Origin: Candidatus Chloroploca asiatica
Lineage (GTDB): Bacteria; Chloroflexota; Chloroflexia; Chloroflexales; Chloroflexaceae
Assembly (NCBI RefSeq): GCF_002532075.1
Contig: NZ_LYXE01000104.1
Location: forward strand, 1-44,899
Direction of reading: 5' to 3'
Length of the DNA: 44,899 nt
Shown: in pieces, positions 8,243 through 21,417 of the stretch
Numbering within the stretch: the stretch's first letter is position 1
How the letters are laid out: every line of letters starts with the position of its first letter
Position numbers and translations under genes: made by a program
The notes under the pieces: model-generated
What the model was told of the DNA's origin: nothing
Databases searched by the model: none
The model's input: the letters and a program-made list of their open reading frames with translations, nothing else

Positions 8243-8264
8243 AGGCCAGTGCAGCTGGCTTTTT
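8243..8264 (+). terminator. Rho-independent terminator of the kinase/regulator operon
   Basis: A 7-bp stem (8243-8249 with 8255-8261, one G-U pair) with a TGCAG loop, followed by a run of T at 8260-8264. It lies between two convergent genes and overlaps the stop codon of the minus-strand acetyltransferase gene. Confidence 0.75.
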
Positions 8265-8796
8265 ACCCACGCGCTAAGGGGATTTCACGCACCATCGCGA
8301 CTTCGTCGCAGCGATCTTGCTTGAAGCAGGTGTTGCAGTCTTGCCAGATTTTGTGCGGTAGGCGTAACTTCGGCACTTCGCGAAAGCCAAGACGACTGAA
8401 AAAGCCCACTTGCAAGGTGAGTGCAAAGATCGTCGGGATGCCCAGTTCACGGGCTTCGTCAAAGAGTGGCTCGACCAGATAACGGCCTAGTCCGCGCCCT
8501 TGAAAGTCGGGATGCACGGTCAGGCTCACCACTTCTGCCAGGTCGGCCCAGGTAATATTGAGTGCCGCCGAGCCGACCACTTCGCCGTCGGCTTCGGCGA
8601 CGTTGAAGGAACGTACCCGATTGTAGAGTTGATCGAGCGTTTTAGGTAACATATCGCCGCGCAAGGCGTAGTAGTTGATCATCTCGTATAACCGCGGTAT
8701 ATCACTAACCCGCGCGCGCCGAATGATGACGGCTGCGTCGGGGCTGACGTTCAGGCGAGGCAAGGTGACCGGTGGCTGATACAACGGACTGGTCAT
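8263..8796 (-). CDS. N-acetylglutamate synthase, short GNAT form
   Basis: A 177-residue GNAT acetyltransferase. HPDFQGRGLGRYLVEPLFDEAR is the acetyl-CoA pyrophosphate loop and helix; VGSAALNITWADLAEVVSL supplies the central strands. The C-terminus LRLPHKIWQDCNTCFKQDRC, with its Cys cluster, is characteristic of short-form N-acetylglutamate synthases found in arginine clusters. It is the last gene of the arg operon, 15 bp behind argH. It likely makes N-acetylglutamate from glutamate and acetyl-CoA, priming the acetyl cycle run by ArgJ. The assignment rests on motif and context. Confidence 0.8.
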   Translation of the reverse strand: MTSPLYQPPVTLPRLNVSPDAAVIIRRARVSDIPRLYEMINYYALRGDMLPKTLDQLYNRVRSFNVAEADGEVVGSAALNITWADLAEVVSLTVHPDFQGRGLGRYLVEPLFDEARELGIPTIFALTLQVGFFSRLGFREVPKLRLPHKIWQDCNTCFKQDRCDEVAMVREIPLARG

Positions 8797-8811: not shown

Positions 8812-10191
8812 TTACTCATCAAGCAGATCACGCCAGCGGGCACACTGTTCAAGGACGCGATCCGGTGCCGTGCCGCCCAGGCTATCTTTGCGCGCAACAC
8901 TCTGGGCCATATCAAAGAGACTGTAGACGGTATGGTCAAGTTCCGGCTGAACCGCCTGATATTCAACCAGGGGCAATTCGCGCATCGGCAGGTGCAACTC
9001 AAGCGCCCGCCGTACCAGACGCCCTACTTTGCCGTGCGCCTCGCGGAAGGGCACACCGCGACGCACTAGGTCATCCGCTAGGTCAGTGGCGAGCATCGCA
9101 TCATCGAGCGCTGCCCGCATCCGCTCGTGCCGGGCCTCCATCGTCGCTACGACCGCCGCCGCGACCTCAAGGCTCAGATCAAGTGTGTCCAGGCTGTCAA
9201 AGAAGGGCTCTTTGTCCTCTTGCATGTCTTTGTTGTAGGTCATCGGCAGCCCTTTGAGCACGGTGAGCAGGGTGACAAGATTGCCGACGAGCCGCCCGCT
9301 TTTGCCCCGTAGCAGTTCCATGCTATCCGGGTTCTTCTTTTGCGGCATCAGACTTGACCCGGTGCTGTAGGCGTCGGCCAGTTCGACAAAGCCGAACTCG
9401 GCGCTGCTGTAGAGCACCAGATCTTCGGCGAGACGGCTGAGGTGGACGCCGGTCAGCGCAAAGGTGAAGAGCAGTTCGGCTACGTAATCACGATCCGAGA
9501 CCGCATCAAGCGAGTTGCCAGCCACTGCGTCAAACTCATCAAGCGCCTCGGTCAGCCGTTCGCGTTCAATGCCCAGGCTGTTCCCCGCCAGTGCGCCCGC
9601 ACCGAGCGGGAGCGTGCGGGCGCGCGCTGTTGCTTCATGGACGCGCTGACGGTCGCGCTCGAACATCTCGACATACGCGAGGCACCAGTGCCCGAAGGTG
9701 ATCGGTTGCGCCCGTTGCAGGTGCGTATAGCCCGGCATCAGCGTCGAGGCATGGGCTTCGGCCTGGGTCAGCAGGGCGAGTTGTAGCCCGAGCAGGCGCT
9801 GATCGATCTGCCGCCCTGCGCTGATCGCAAAGAGGCGCATATCGGTGGCTACCTGATCATTGCGCGAACGCCCAGTGTGCAGCTTGAGCGCGACAACACC
9901 CACCAGTTCGTGGAGCCGACGCTCGACGGCGGTGTGAATATCTTCGTCGCCTTCGATCGCTTCAAAGCTGCCATCGGCAAATTCACGGCGTACCAGTTCC
10001 AAGCCTTGACAAAGCGCTTCGTACTCTTCGCGATTGATCAGGCCTGCTTCGAGCAGCGCTCCAGCCCATGCGATGCTCCCGTCAATGTCGACCTCGGCCA
10101 GGCGGCGGTCAAAGCGAAACGAATCATTGAAGCGACGCATTGTCGCTGCCGTCGGTTCGGCAAAGCGCCCCCCCCAGAGTTTGTGTTCCAT
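8812..10191 (-). CDS. argH: Argininosuccinate lyase
   Basis: A 459-residue member of the fumarase/aspartase superfamily that splits argininosuccinate into arginine and fumarate, the final step of arginine synthesis in the cytoplasm. The N-terminus MEHKLWGGRFAEPTAATMRRF and the signature GSSLMPQKKNPDSMELLRGK, with its flexible catalytic Ser loop, are clear; SRNDQVATDMRLF and HLQRAQPITFGHWCLAY are further family blocks. Length is normal. AAGGA lies upstream of ATG 10191. It is 10 bp downstream of the nucleotidyltransferase-like gene and 15 bp upstream of the acetylglutamate synthase gene in the same operon. Confidence 0.97.
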   Translation of the reverse strand: MEHKLWGGRFAEPTAATMRRFNDSFRFDRRLAEVDIDGSIAWAGALLEAGLINREEYEALCQGLELVRREFADGSFEAIEGDEDIHTAVERRLHELVGVVALKLHTGRSRNDQVATDMRLFAISAGRQIDQRLLGLQLALLTQAEAHASTLMPGYTHLQRAQPITFGHWCLAYVEMFERDRQRVHEATARARTLPLGAGALAGNSLGIERERLTEALDEFDAVAGNSLDAVSDRDYVAELLFTFALTGVHLSRLAEDLVLYSSAEFGFVELADAYSTGSSLMPQKKNPDSMELLRGKSGRLVGNLVTLLTVLKGLPMTYNKDMQEDKEPFFDSLDTLDLSLEVAAAVVATMEARHERMRAALDDAMLATDLADDLVRRGVPFREAHGKVGRLVRRALELHLPMRELPLVEYQAVQPELDHTVYSLFDMAQSVARKDSLGGTAPDRVLEQCARWRDLLDE

Positions 10192-10201
10192 GCGTATGTC
10201 C

Positions 10202-10930
10202 TTAGATCTGCTCGATCTTCTGATATCTTTGAATGCTCATATTTTGTGCGACCAACAAGCGCCAGTAGGCGGCCATGAGTTCGCCTGCGCTGGGCACAAG
10301 CTCACTGAACTGCTGCGCCGTCAGCAGGGCCTTGACAAGGTGTGCGTAACCCTCGGGTCGCACCGGAAACGCCATGCTCTGTTCGAGGGCCGGGTACCCT
10401 TCGCCCGTTACCCAGCGTCGGTTGATTAGACAAAGTGCTTGACATAACTCCTCGGTCATGCACCTGGCTCCCAGCGTTGCATCGAGTTCATCGTTGCGTG
10501 CCGCCGCCGCGCGGAGTCGCCCATACGCTTGAAAGACCAGGGCGGGCAAATGTGTTGCGACGCCGATCAAAAAGGCTTCGTGGTCAAGACGCATCCCCAG
10601 GGTGCGCCATTGGGCCACAAGGTCGGCGTCGCCCACGAGTGGTTGCAGTTGATCGAGCCGCCCCATCATCGTCGCCCACTGCAAACCGGGGCCACCCAGT
10701 TCGGCTTCAAGGTGACGACGCTCGGTTACGAGCATCGCCACCGTCACCTCTTGAAAAAGCAGATGGCGTTCACGGAACACCAGGCTATTCTCAACCACAA
10801 ACCAGAGTTTCAACCCTGACCAGGGATCGTCTTCGCCTGGGATCGCAAGGCTTCCACCGAGCACAATTTGATCACCGTAGGTTGTATGCATCCGGCGGAG
10901 TAGCTCGCGCGCCAGATCAAGGCGGGTCAT
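10202..10930 (-). CDS. Nucleotidyltransferase-like protein in the arg operon
   Basis: A 242-residue protein without a firm family assignment. The start RMHTTYGDQIVLGGSLAIPGEDDPWSGLKLWFVVENS resembles the GS...D.WSDL.L active-site region of minimal and aminoglycoside nucleotidyltransferases. The second catalytic position reads GLKL instead of DLDL, so at least one metal ligand appears lost. The helical C-terminal half could correspond to the KNTase-type domain. The gene overlaps the argJ stop by 4 nt and precedes argH by 10 bp, so it is embedded in the arginine operon. A degenerate, possibly regulatory or ligand-binding nucleotidyltransferase fold is an inference only. Confidence 0.6.
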   Translation of the reverse strand: MTRLDLARELLRRMHTTYGDQIVLGGSLAIPGEDDPWSGLKLWFVVENSLVFRERHLLFQEVTVAMLVTERRHLEAELGGPGLQWATMMGRLDQLQPLVGDADLVAQWRTLGMRLDHEAFLIGVATHLPALVFQAYGRLRAAAARNDELDATLGARCMTEELCQALCLINRRWVTGEGYPALEQSMAFPVRPEGYAHLVKALLTAQQFSELVPSAGELMAAYWRLLVAQNMSIQRYQKIEQI

Positions 10931-12147
10931 GTACGATACTCGGCGTTAATGGCAACATATTCCGGACTGAAATCGCATGTCCAGACCGTTGCCTCACCCT
11001 CACCGAGGCCAAGGTCGGCCTCAATGCTCACTTCGGGCACATTGAGCAGGTCGCTGGCGGCTTTTTCGTCAAAGGGCAGCGGCAGGCCCCGTTCGAGCAC
11101 CCGCATGCCACCAAAGTGCAACACAACGCGTTCGGGATCAAGGTGTGCCCCGCTATACCCCATCGCACAGAGTACCCGTCCCCAGTTGGGATCAGCCCCA
11201 TAGAGCGCCGTTTTGACTAGTGGTGATTTGGCGATCGTCATCGCCGCGAGGCGTGCATCGGCGACACTGACTGCACCGCGGACGGTGATCGTCACAAAGC
11301 GAGTTGCGCCCTCGCCATCGCGTACCACGGCCTGCGCCAGGTACTGGCAGAGCGCCGTCAACGCGGCCACGAAACTCGCCCCATCGGAGCTTGCGAGGTC
11401 GGTAATTGGTGCATTGCCGACCGCGCCATTCGCGAGCACCAGCAGCGTATCGTTGGTACTCGTATCGCCATCAATGCTAATGCTATTGAAACTGACCTCG
11501 ACCGCCTGGCGCAGCGCGGCATCAAGCGCCTCACGACTGATAGCGGCATCGGTTGTTACCACACTCAGCATGGTTGCCATATTCGGATGGATCATGCCGG
11601 CCCCCTTCGCCATCCCGCCCAGGGTAATTGTATACCCCGAAGGAAGCTCCACGCGTAGGGCGGCATGTTTCGGGCGCGTATCGGTCGTCATGATCGACCG
11701 TGCCGCCGCCGGCCCTTTGGCCGCATCAAGCTTCTGTGCAGCGGCTTGAATCCCGGTGACAACCTTGGCGATCGGCATTGGCACGCCGATGGTACCGGTT
11801 GACATCACAAACGCCGTATCAACCGGCAAACCCAGGGCTTCTTCGGTCGTACGCGCCATGGTCAATGTTGCTACCTCGCCCTCGCTGCCGGTGCAGGCAT
11901 TGGCATTGCCCGCATTGACGACGAGCGCACGCAACCCAGTGGGGTTGCGCGTCATCAGTTCCATGTCATAGCGTACCGGGGCTGCCTTGACCAGATTGGT
12001 GGTAAAGACAGCGGCGGCTGTACATGCGCGTTCGCTCACCAGCAAGGCAAGATCATCACGGTTGCGATATTTGATGCCACAGTCGTGGGTTGCGGCCCGC
12101 CAGCCCAATGGCGACGTGGGGTGACCATCTTCGATCCATGTATCCAT
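10927..12147 (-). CDS. argJ: Bifunctional ornithine acetyltransferase / N-acetylglutamate synthase
   Basis: A 406-residue ArgJ. It transfers acetyl from N-acetylornithine to glutamate, closing the acetyl cycle. The self-cleavage site is clear in GAGMIHPNMATMLSVVTTD: the Thr of ATML becomes the N-terminal nucleophile after autoproteolysis. Other markers are GNANACTGSEG, VMSTGTIGVPMPI and the C-terminal EYVAINAEYRT. Length is normal. It lies 17 bp after the phosphatase gene and overlaps the next start by 4 nt (ATGA). With a separate N-acetylglutamate synthase in the operon, its main role is probably recycling. Confidence 0.97.
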   Translation of the reverse strand: MDTWIEDGHPTSPLGWRAATHDCGIKYRNRDDLALLVSERACTAAAVFTTNLVKAAPVRYDMELMTRNPTGLRALVVNAGNANACTGSEGEVATLTMARTTEEALGLPVDTAFVMSTGTIGVPMPIAKVVTGIQAAAQKLDAAKGPAAARSIMTTDTRPKHAALRVELPSGYTITLGGMAKGAGMIHPNMATMLSVVTTDAAISREALDAALRQAVEVSFNSISIDGDTSTNDTLLVLANGAVGNAPITDLASSDGASFVAALTALCQYLAQAVVRDGEGATRFVTITVRGAVSVADARLAAMTIAKSPLVKTALYGADPNWGRVLCAMGYSGAHLDPERVVLHFGGMRVLERGLPLPFDEKAASDLLNVPEVSIEADLGLGEGEATVWTCDFSPEYVAINAEYRT

Positions 12148-12164: not shown

Positions 12165-12878
12165 CTACTCGGTTGGTACCGGTGATGCCGGATGCCCACC
12201 AGGTGCTTGCAAATCCGTATCTTCCCAGCGCACCGACTCGGTTGCGCCGATATCGTGCAGATGGGCAATATCATTATAGCTATTCAAGCGCCAGAGCAGC
12301 CGCCCCCGCCGATGAACCTGTTCCCAGTGGGTCAGGCTCGTATTGCGGGTGTGAAAATCGGTTGGTGGCAAGACATTCGAGGGCATCTGGAAGAAATGCA
12401 TAAACGCCCCGTCAATCACGCCCCCATGACAGACAAGCACAATCGATTTGCCTGCGTGTTCACGGGTAATTCTGGTCAAGGCCTCGGCAACCCGTAGCAT
12501 AAAGCCGCCCCAACTCTCGCCGCCGGGGGCAATTGGGCGCAGCGGATACTGCTCAAAGTCAGGCGGGCCAAAGATCGCCCACGCTTCCTGGTTGGTCATA
12601 CCATCAACTTCGCCGAGGCGCAATTCCTGCACCTCATCATCCAGGATGATCGGCAACCCCAGTGCTGGCTGGATGATTTCGGCGGTCTGGCGTGCCCGTG
12701 GCAGCGTGCTGGCGATCAACACATCGGCCTTGAGTTCGCCGTGGGCCAGGCGATCACGCAGCCGCTCGGCCTGTTTGACCCCCCGTGGGGTCAATCCTTT
12801 GTCACCCTGCATTCCGGCCAGAATTGGTTGCACATTCGCCCACGCTTCGCCGTGGCGAATCAGATAGAGATTGGTCAT
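12165..12878 (-). CDS. Histidine phosphatase family protein
   Basis: A 237-residue phosphoglycerate-mutase-like protein. NLYLIRHGEAWANVQ carries the RHG motif with the phospho-accepting His; STLPRARQTAEII, ELRLGEVDGMTNQEAWA and IVLVCHGGVIDGAFMHFF supply the other catalytic Arg, Glu and His. ATG 12878 is chosen because the family begins two residues before the first strand; the open frame extends upstream without a better start. The substrate is unknown. It sits between argG and argJ, but an arginine-specific role is not evident. An intercistronic hairpin separates it from argG. Confidence 0.85.
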   Translation of the reverse strand: MTNLYLIRHGEAWANVQPILAGMQGDKGLTPRGVKQAERLRDRLAHGELKADVLIASTLPRARQTAEIIQPALGLPIILDDEVQELRLGEVDGMTNQEAWAIFGPPDFEQYPLRPIAPGGESWGGFMLRVAEALTRITREHAGKSIVLVCHGGVIDGAFMHFFQMPSNVLPPTDFHTRNTSLTHWEQVHRRGRLLWRLNSYNDIAHLHDIGATESVRWEDTDLQAPGGHPASPVPTE

Positions 12879-12895
12879 ACGCCACTTTCTTTTGC

Positions 12896-12934
12896 GTGTT
12901 GCGTGGTGACGGCGCAACCGCCACCACGCAACAC
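12896..12934 (-). other. Intercistronic hairpin after argG
   Basis: Perfect inverted repeat with 13-bp arms (12896-12908 / 12922-12934) and a 13-nt loop, 13 bp downstream of the argG stop. No U-tract follows on the minus strand. It may stabilise argG mRNA or partly end transcription before the phosphatase gene. Confidence 0.7.
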
Positions 12935-12947
12935 CCAAACATCCACC

Positions 12948-14150
<1,203 letters not shown>

Positions 14151-14184: not shown

Positions 14185-14221
14185 ATTAAAAGAGCCAGCC
14201 CTGCGCTCTAGCAAAGCTGGC
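14185..14221 (-). terminator. Attenuator terminator in the argG leader
   Basis: On the minus strand GCCAGC (14221-14216) pairs with GCTGGC (14199-14194), with an inner TGC/GCA helix, followed by TCTTTTAAT (14193-14185). It lies between the leader ORF stop (14249) and the argG start (14150), so it is a terminator inside the 5' leader. Its 5' arm can alternatively pair with 14256-14251. Confidence 0.7.
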
Positions 14222-14248
14222 CTGATCCCCAATGGTCAACAAGCACAA

Positions 14249-14362
14249 TTAGCCAGGGCAGAAAGCCGACTGGAAGTTGGTACGACGGTCTCGACGCAGG
14301 CGCATACCGCTCACTGGTGAGCTGTGGATGCGCAGAAACTGGTGCGAGAAGATCGATGCCAT
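14249..14362 (-). CDS. Candidate arginine leader peptide (attenuation)
   Basis: A 37-codon ORF in the argG leader with five Arg codons in seven (RLRRDRR, residues 21-27; 14302-14282) and one earlier Arg. It begins about 33 nt after the predicted transcription start; GAGG lies 12 nt before the ATG, longer than usual. Arg codons are followed by two exclusive pairings. A hairpin at 14273-14253 has CCAG/CTGG plus GGC/GCC helices. Alternatively CTGGCT (14256-14251) pairs with GGCCAG (14222-14217), which would disrupt the terminator at 14221-14194. A ribosome stalled at the Arg run would cover CCAG and favour the second pairing. This is the architecture of trp/his-type attenuation; translation and function are inferred. 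Confidence 0.65.
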   Translation of the reverse strand: MASIFSHQFLRIHSSPVSGMRLRRDRRTNFQSAFCPG

Positions 14363-14401
14363 GGTGTGCTTTTGCCTCGTAAACGATGTCGCCGTGCGCA
14401 G

Positions 14402-14430
14402 AGTATACCACACGCCCTGGGAGGCGTCAA
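14402..14430 (-). promoter_or_regulatory. Promoter of the arginine operon
   Basis: On the minus strand: -35 TTGACG (14430-14425), exactly 17 nt, then -10 TATACT (14407-14402) with an extended TGG. Transcription should begin near 14395, giving a leader of about 245 nt before argG. The site lies just outside MITE-like copy B. Confidence 0.8.
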
Positions 14431-14449: not shown

Positions 14450-14646
14450 AGGGCTGATGCATCTTCCGTGTATGCACCCGCCAGGGCACCCGCAAGGGGT
14501 GCCCGTACACCGGACCCGGCCCCCGCCGGGTTGCGCCGGGGCCGCGCACACCACCACGACGGCCCGGCCGGCCTGTAGGGGCACCCCTTGCGGGTGCCCT
14601 GATAGGGCGTCTTGTTATATCCGGTTTCGTATGATGCAATCGCCCT
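14450..14646 (+). repeat. MITE-like element, copy B
   Basis: The left end AGGGCTGATGCATCTTCC (14450-14467) and right end GATGCAATCGCCCT (14633-14646) form imperfect terminal inverted repeats. Two hairpin-forming GGCACCC..GGGTGCC blocks flank a GC-rich core. Only one or two 12-bp units are present, so this looks like the unexpanded form. It sits between the divergent arg promoter and the promoter of the gene at 14757. Confidence 0.85.
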
Positions 14647-21276: not shown

Positions 21277-21417
21277 AGGGTGATTGCATCATACGAAAGC
21301 GGATACAACGGGGCACCCGCAAGGGGTGCCCGTACACCGGATTCGGCCCCTGGCCCTGTAGGGGCACCCCTGGCGGGTGCCCTGGTGGGGTGCATACACG
21401 GAAGATGCAATCGCCCT
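21277..21417 (-). repeat. MITE-like element, copy C (inverted)
   Basis: Terminal repeats AGGGTGATTGCATC (21277-21290) and GATGCAATCGCCCT (21404-21417) enclose the two hairpin blocks and the short core, in reverse orientation to copy B. A solo terminus AGGGCGATTGCG (21429-21440) lies directly beside it, a leftover of a second copy. It sits between an Rpn remnant and a LuxR-HTH remnant. Confidence 0.85.

Follow-up and report, generated by a model that had tools for sequence, protein, structure and literature searches.

A candidate ribosome-mediated arginine attenuator ahead of argG in Candidatus Chloroploca asiatica, and related leaders in Chloroflexota

How might transcription of the arginine genes of Candidatus Chloroploca asiatica be adjusted to the supply of arginine? 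The window, i.e., the whole stretch of 44,899 nucleotides analysed here, carries a gene group headed by argG. An earlier note, made from the letters alone, had read the region ahead of it as an attenuator in which a ribosome on a short leader peptide senses arginyl-tRNA. The genes in question are:

12948-14150, minus strand: argG, argininosuccinate synthase (NCBIfam TIGR00032 and NF001770 over cut-off; reading frame open from 14186)
12165-12938, minus strand: gene of the histidine phosphatase superfamily (Pfam PF00300), which follows the leader where argG does not
10927-12147, minus strand: argJ (NCBIfam TIGR00120 over cut-off)
10202-10930, minus strand: operon gene of no known family, 242-residue product
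8812-10191, minus strand: argH (NCBIfam TIGR00838 over cut-off)
8263-8796, minus strand: GNAT N-acetyltransferase gene adjoining argH (NCBIfam NF005840 over cut-off)

From argG to the GNAT gene they probably form a single transcript. The gene for the 242-residue protein (10930-10202, between argJ and argH) has no match in NCBIfam or Pfam. A gap of similar length separates argJ from argH in the four relatives examined. The ATG at 14150 is preferred as the start of argG because GGAG at 14160-14157 has a fitting Shine-Dalgarno spacing. The distance from the terminator stem to the start is therefore about 42 nt, which amends the 34 nt given earlier.

Ahead of argG the following parts were located:

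14402-14430, minus strand: putative sigma-70-type promoter, TTGACG at 14430-14425, 17-nt spacer, TATACT at 14407-14402 (consensus scan)
14249-14362, minus strand: leader ORF of 37 codons plus TAA, ATG at 14362; homologues in 38 of the order's 82 genomes
14282-14302, minus strand: Arg codon run, the proposed stalling site, CGC CTG CGT CGA GAC CGT CGT
14265-14273, minus strand: segment 1 (CCAGUCGGC), 5' arm of the predicted protector hairpin 14273-14253 (RNAalifold on 22 leaders; pair counts mixed)
14252-14256, minus strand: segment 2 (CUGGC), overlapping the last codons, which would alternate between segment 1 and segment 3
14240-14244, minus strand: GCUUG, conserved in A1 and A2, directly 3' of the leader stop; 5' side of the inner antiterminator helix
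14220-14224, minus strand: CAGGC, which pairs with GCUUG as the 3' side of that helix and overlaps the 5' arm of the terminator
14208-14212, minus strand: segment 3 (GCUAG), predicted loop-side partner of segment 2, in the 5' arm and loop of the terminator (from folding the window RNA and from 62 leaders that span all classes)
14193-14222, minus strand: stem-loop of the intrinsic terminator (segments 3 and 4), 12 pairs, then CTTTT at 14192-14188

Most of what had been claimed for this locus is found again. The putative promoter, with its 17-nt spacer, was located at 14430-14402 by the consensus scan, and TG precedes its -10 box. Between 14000 and 14700 there is one promoter-type site, compared with 0.2 +/- 0.4 in shuffles; terminator-like sites number two, compared with 0.5 +/- 0.8. 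The leader ORF from the ATG at 14362 to the TAA at 14249 would encode MASIFSHQFLRIHSSPVSGMRLRRDRRTNFQSAFCPG, and the run Arg-Leu-Arg-Arg-Asp-Arg-Arg (14302-14282) holds the five Arg in seven codons that had been described. The intrinsic terminator between leader ORF and argG is likewise in place (stem 14222-14193, then CTTTT), and its arms covary among homologues. Segment 2 (14252-14256) overlaps the last codons, as expected of the switching segment that had been placed at the leader stop. As to the two exclusive pairings, hairpin 14273-14253 and 14256-14251 with 14222-14217, both are present as complementary stretches. The hairpin was said to begin just where a ribosome stalled on the Arg run would reach. 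In the window's genus three codons (Thr Asn Phe) lie between the run and segment 1, so that a ribosome on the last Arg codon touches only the edge of segment 1.

A 21-bp sequence, GGGCACCCGCAAGGGGTGCCC, also occurs here, frequently as inverted pairs. The genome has 279 exact copies of it and none of the reversed control. Its copies in the window lie at 14484-14504, 14579-14599, 93-113, 144-164, 21311-21331 and 21362-21382; one inverted pair is located upstream of the argG promoter.

We propose, with a probability of about 0.85, that the leader is a ribosome-mediated transcription attenuator which senses arginyl-tRNA and controls the operon argG, phosphatase gene, argJ, 242-residue protein gene, argH and GNAT gene. 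Judged from the -10 box, RNA polymerase would start about 33 nt before the leader ORF and a ribosome would follow. With plentiful Arg-tRNA the ribosome would pass the Arg run, reach the stop and cover segment 2 and GCUUG; segments 3 and 4 would then form the terminator and transcription would cease. With scarce Arg-tRNA it would halt on the run and cover, or at least crowd, segment 1. Before segment 4 has been synthesised, segment 2 and GCUUG could then pair with segment 3, and the operon would be transcribed. In RNA that carries no ribosome segment 1 could pair with segment 2, which would leave the terminator free. The parts, their conservation, the covariation of the pairings and the match between codon run and pathway across paralogous leaders are observations; the sequence of events on the RNA and its dependence on arginine are what we infer.

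How widespread is this leader? argG is present in 72 of the 82 genomes of the order, and its upstream region was read in 70 of the 72 (30 + 40 loci). A short ORF with an Arg run precedes argG in 24 genomes (22 found by pattern, plus G020 and G041). Most of these ORFs end alike, e.g., in ARRRPRRQPALCPG, RFRRRTQPDDPSG or PRRRRTKPDTTSG before the stop, and 3' of them lie a GYGCTTG-type motif and then a terminator. A covariance model from 22 of the 24 argG leaders, R1, was run on whole genomes. It recovered the leader in 14 genomes that had contributed no sequence to the model (E 2e-11 to 2e-22 per genome). Those 14 genomes possess only a distant argG homologue, sited elsewhere. The leader precedes a histidine-phosphatase gene in 13 of them, and in G035 the contig ends. 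argJ and argH come after the phosphatase gene in all five longer loci examined (argH is cut by the locus end in one).

Altogether, the Arg leader is found in 38 of the 82 genomes, 24 times before argG, 13 times before the histidine-phosphatase gene and once at a contig end. By family the counts are 33 of 41 in f1, to which the window belongs, 4 of 6 in f3, 1 of 9 in f2 and none of 26 in f4; the 44 genomes of the order in which no Arg leader was found thus include all 26 of f4 and eight of the nine of f2. At 78 additional argG loci, almost all of them beyond the order, in other Chloroflexota or other phyla, a second model, R2, gave no convincing leader. In six f1 genomes without an Arg leader (L016, L017, L022, L024, L129, L138) argG lies after one or two tRNA-Ala genes. 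At locus L211 (G010) an Arg leader occurs twice in nearly identical form, at 519-616 and, 1.8 kb away, at 2290-2387; the second copy precedes the histidine-phosphatase gene. Relatives that have the terminator also keep an Arg-rich ORF; the opposite would, by the earlier note, have refuted its reading. None of the order's 82 genomes matched the arginine repressor ArgR (PF01316), as against 9 of the 14 control genomes; in a sample of the phylum 69 of 301 genomes matched it, 65 of them over the cut-off.

R1 matched a further group of sites by only the part of the model that lies 3' of the Arg run. These are leaders with Lys runs, e.g., MPIAISKQVKRVKKPAHRSG and MQSPITKQVKRSKKPDVWSG, each up to its stop, and they precede lysine genes of the alpha-aminoadipate pathway: homocitrate synthase (TIGR02146), the large subunit of the homoaconitase family or lysX (TIGR02144). 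The genome of the window has its own Lys leader before homocitrate synthase (locus L194, G000:C175:22770-22867, minus strand), ending in KQLKRVKKPAFRSG before the stop. With an identified lysine gene, 56 Lys leaders were counted in 54 of the 82 genomes.

R2, built from 56 Arg, Lys and Gln-rich leaders, matches 70 of the 82 genomes at E <= 0.05 and 55 of 400 phylum-sample genomes at E <= 0.02, eight weak matches among those viewed being false. Two other orders gave R2 matches in 6 of 7 genomes and in all 15 genomes, respectively; 28 of these 36 matches were viewed, of which one was false, one doubtful and one weak. There, leaders with Arg runs precede argC, and leaders with Lys runs precede homocitrate synthase or lysX. 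The identity of argC was confirmed by NCBIfam TIGR01850 in 6 of 6 genes tested, and an argB-like gene comes next in 3 of 3 tested. Both models favour Arg and Lys leaders because they include run codons (R1 the Arg run, R2 the last three codons of the run); gene context was used in no scan. Reverse-strand matches of the nearly palindromic scaffold were ignored. Weak matches at L218, L223, L229, L231 and L233, and further ones at L290, L291, L292, L293, L295, L296, L298, L300, L329 and L355, were dropped as non-leaders on viewing; L343 is doubtful and was excluded from the counts, and a leader before gltX in G056 (L274) is too weak to assign to a class. Two tandem leaders precede lysX in L323 (G445) and in L325 (G444).

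Does the codon run follow the pathway? The 13 codons before segment 1 were tabulated for 138 leaders whose downstream gene is identified (53 arginine, 67 lysine and 18 LysE family), near-identical genus copies included. Arg codons outnumber Lys codons in 52 of the 53 leaders of arginine genes; Lys codons outnumber Arg codons in 64 of the 67 leaders of lysine genes (Fisher P 2e-30 for codon class against gene class, uncorrected for phylogeny). Four exceptions are kept in these counts: L217 and L271 are real ones (diverged or tied), and in L341 and the second leader of L323 the script chose the wrong frame. A first, smaller set had given the same picture, with Arg above Lys in 38 of 38 arginine leaders and Arg not above Lys in 51 of 52 lysine leaders. 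Arg and Lys leaders occur together within one genome in 38 genomes. Further, CGT makes up 71 of 107 Arg codons (66%) in the runs of the argG leaders, against 84 of 675 (12%) in argG itself at those 24 loci.

Two further groups use the same scaffold, and we regard them as leads of lesser certainty. Eighteen leaders before genes of LysE-family transporters are Gln-rich or, in genus g34, Lys-rich or mixed (means of Q 2.8, K 1.6 and R 1.2; n=18). Two more Gln-rich leaders were found separately. The whole group comprises L208, L210, L213, L221, L230, L262-L265, L270, L272, L273, L276, L285, L286, L288, L289, L294, L351 and L352. That an exporter should be induced by shortage of Gln is odd; perhaps the LysE-family gene imports, or Gln reports the nitrogen state. 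R3, a model of the scaffold only, was run on 400 genomes of the phylum and returned two Pro-containing leaders which head gene groups with prolyl-tRNA synthetase (proS, TIGR00408). They are L350 (G256), ending in RLPSPPEPEKPDRRSG before the stop, and L354 (G139), MFTRQTPSPRSELASRSG, with only two Pro. We claim no Pro class since there are only two cases.

We lean somewhat towards the view that one ancestral RNA switch was copied and recoded within Chloroflexota into attenuators for Arg, Lys, probably Gln and perhaps Pro, which took the place of ArgR where none was found. The scaffold would consist of segment 1 inside the end of the ORF, segment 2 at the stop, GCUUG and the terminator, with an exchangeable codon run. 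Its targets would be argG, the phosphatase-argJ-argH group and argC for Arg; homocitrate synthase, the homoaconitase family and lysX for Lys; the LysE-family transporter genes; and the proS groups.

An arrest peptide might produce similar leaders. According to this alternative the growing chain would bind arginine or a related compound inside the exit tunnel and thereby arrest the ribosome, in the manner of SpeFL and the fungal arginine attenuator peptide. Many leaders do end in a recurring pattern, x-P-[AD]-x-x-x-[SP]-G-stop or near it. Yet the RNA pairing CCGGAC:GUCUGG accounts for this pattern. The Lys leaders of f3 have their frame one base off relative to the scaffold; therefore, the nucleotides are kept while the residues change. 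L228 and L269 retain CCGGAC in the other frame and read KSRTIASG or KGRTIASG, and L266 and L277 retain CCGGGC with changed residues. Six argC leaders from the order of G425 (L334, L336, L337, L341, L342, L345) stop before segment 1, and still the scaffold persists. Frame-shifted Lys leaders and moved argC stops thus preserve the RNA and not the peptide, and the residue of the run varies with the pathway. All this speaks against an arrest peptide, which we consider improbable.

We next turn to the pairings. Pair counts were compared with shuffled and slid controls, and cells with double changes with the shuffle mean; the shuffles are uncorrected for phylogeny. From the 22 argG leaders RNAalifold predicts the hairpin of segments 1 and 2 and the terminator without prompting. 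For segments 2 and 3, 81.9% of cells are paired in A1 (22 rows), with 12 double changes against 6.8 (2 of 500 shuffles); in the Arg set A6 (39 rows, 37 distinct) 83.2%, with 12 against 3.5 (2 of 500). The Lys set A5 (53 leaders) reaches 88.1%, with 36 double changes against 20.2 (0 of 500), and one slid version has 34. The outer helix in the mixed set A7, 62 leaders hand-picked from 109 thinned ones (of 128), is paired in 90.2% of cells, with 26 double changes against 4.9 (0 of 500), and all six slid versions score lower.

The terminator is paired in 77.0% of cells in the Lys set, with 55 double changes against 20.0 (0 of 500). In the Arg set the figures are 87.7% and 8 against 1.6 (0 of 500), where two slid versions have 9 and some match or surpass it on single measures. 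The hairpin of segments 1 and 2 is paired in 75.3% of cells in the Arg set, with 15 double changes against 6.1 (0 of 500), and in 84.3% in the mixed set, with 5 against 1.6 (6 of 500) and three slid versions at 7 to 10; A1 (3 against 3.4) and the Lys set (1 against 0.6) show no excess. Covariation, which the earlier note had proposed to check, thus supports antiterminator and terminator, and the 5' hairpin more weakly.

The antiterminator itself needs a refinement. In the window RNA it consists of CUGGC:GCUAG plus GCUUG:CAGGC (14244-14240 with 14224-14220), exclusive with the terminator. Judged from the alignments, the loop-side GCUAG (14212-14208), together with GCUUG:CAGGC, appears as the antiterminator partner common to all classes, and not the previously named 14222-14217. 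The pairing of 14256-14251 with the latter site is nevertheless kept inside the Arg set (90.5% of cells); therefore, both partner sites may serve the Arg class.

The energy calculations omit L274, L287, the leaders that have no standard stop, two that are truncated by a contig end and four genus copies that are nearly identical. When segment 1 is masked and segment 4 is not yet made, the pairing of segments 2 and 3 reaches P >= 0.5 in 37 of the 38 Arg leaders, in all 50 Lys leaders and in 16 of the 17 LysE-linked ones. The mean P in this state is 0.88, 0.98 and 0.86, respectively, against 0.45, 0.56 and 0.49 with the segment 3 side shuffled. By energy, the masked antiterminator is better than 57 or more of 60 shuffles in 14 of the 38 Arg leaders, in 46 of the 50 Lys leaders and in 6 of the 17 LysE-linked ones, which makes the Lys class the strong case. 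For the window's leader 13 of 60 shuffles are at least as stable as the masked antiterminator fold. In its masked full-length fold the terminator still stands at 0.96. By these models it is a weak member of its class.

Full-length leaders modelled at equilibrium with a masked segment 1 mostly keep the terminator, whose probability drops under 0.5 in no more than 12 of the 36 Arg leaders, 10 of the 50 Lys leaders and one of the 17 LysE-linked ones. The terminator wins most equilibrium folds, and antitermination must therefore be kinetic. In truncated RNA free of ribosomes the hairpin of segments 1 and 2 dominates in fewer than half of the leaders of each class (11 of 38 for Arg, 21 of 50 for Lys and 8 of 17 for LysE-linked leaders); in full-length RNA free of ribosomes the terminator forms in 17 of 36, 45 of 50 and 17 of 17, respectively. 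As modelled, free leader RNA is less clean than the classical scheme. Every leader modelled has, close to a U tract, a terminator-like hairpin with 5 pairs or more. Terminator pairs were derived from the fold with the ribosome at the stop, and no leader was dropped for want of a terminator; that all 103 grouped leaders form it in this state is thus largely by construction.

Could the leader be constitutive, its terminator insulating argG or setting a fixed read-through with no response to an amino acid? The predominance of the terminator in full-length equilibrium folds would agree with this, as would the position of argG after tRNA-Ala genes in the six leaderless f1 genomes. Such a leader leaves the conserved antiterminator, the Arg and Lys runs and their match with the pathway unexplained, and we give the idea little credence. 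Even less probable is an RNA-only element, i.e., a riboswitch or a protein-binding RNA with an incidental ORF. The strong RNA covariation would suit it. However, Rfam gave no match at gathering cut-offs anywhere in the window or in 10 leader loci, the codon runs track the pathway, segment 2 overlaps the end of the ORF, and the Arg codons are skewed to CGT. Least probable of all is regulation by the ORF through translation of argG or through Rho in place of an intrinsic terminator: Salmonella speF orf34 works partly in this manner (PMC6386406), but every leader modelled has a terminator-like hairpin, the arms of which covary.

Ribosome-mediated attenuation in response to arginyl-tRNA, the reading of the earlier note, is bolstered by the Arg-rich ORFs in relatives, by covariation of the antiterminator and by the match between run and pathway. 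Is there a precedent? The Lys class has one because Tsubouchi and colleagues reportedly described, in 2005, attenuation of a lysine cluster in Thermus thermophilus by a leader peptide. The Thermus leader follows the same logic as the Lys class and serves lysine genes of the same alpha-aminoadipate pathway; a Thermus control genome matched ArgR (PF01316), unlike the 82 genomes of the order. We know of no arginine counterpart in Thermus and of no leader-peptide precedent for arginine biosynthesis.

Textbook attenuators respond to Trp, His, Leu, Ile-Val, Thr and Phe. Those of the trp, his and leu type combine a leader ORF that contains codons for the product, exclusive pairings 1:2, 2:3 and 3:4, an intrinsic terminator and a biosynthetic operon. 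The window's leader shares the ORF with product codons, an antiterminator exclusive with the terminator, the terminator itself and the biosynthetic operon downstream; the 5' hairpin is predicted. It differs in its Arg (and, in the related class, Lys) codons, in its occurrence in Chloroflexota, in the position of segment 2 over the leader stop, in the inner helix GCUUG:CARGC which would strengthen the antiterminator, and in the use of one homologous scaffold for several amino acids. T-boxes and L-boxes sense tRNA or ligand directly and need no ORF. The arginine T-box and the lysine L-box likewise control arginine or lysine genes at the RNA level; the leaders described here have no Rfam match.

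Ribosome-mediated transcription attenuators of the trp, his and leu type are treated in PMC1183508 and PMC4833913, the latter of which cites an attenuation survey of 2010. PMC1262725 lists arginine T-boxes, lysine L-boxes and attenuators that serve histidine, threonine and phenylalanine. In Salmonella speF orf34, pausing of the ribosome at two consecutive Arg codons alters the fold of the downstream RNA (PMC6386406), and pausing at Arg codons of a leader ORF is also what we propose. In contrast, orf34 controls ornithine decarboxylase via Rho, RNase G and translation, with no intrinsic terminator before arginine biosynthesis. Within the open-access literature searched, we found no attenuation of arginine or lysine genes in Chloroflexota and no case for arginine biosynthesis.

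If our reading is right, it would provide a route for sensing arginine and lysine in a bacterial branch in which ArgR was not found. It would further offer over a hundred natural variants of one switch in which evolution and recoding can be studied, and a simple template for synthetic amino-acid sensors.
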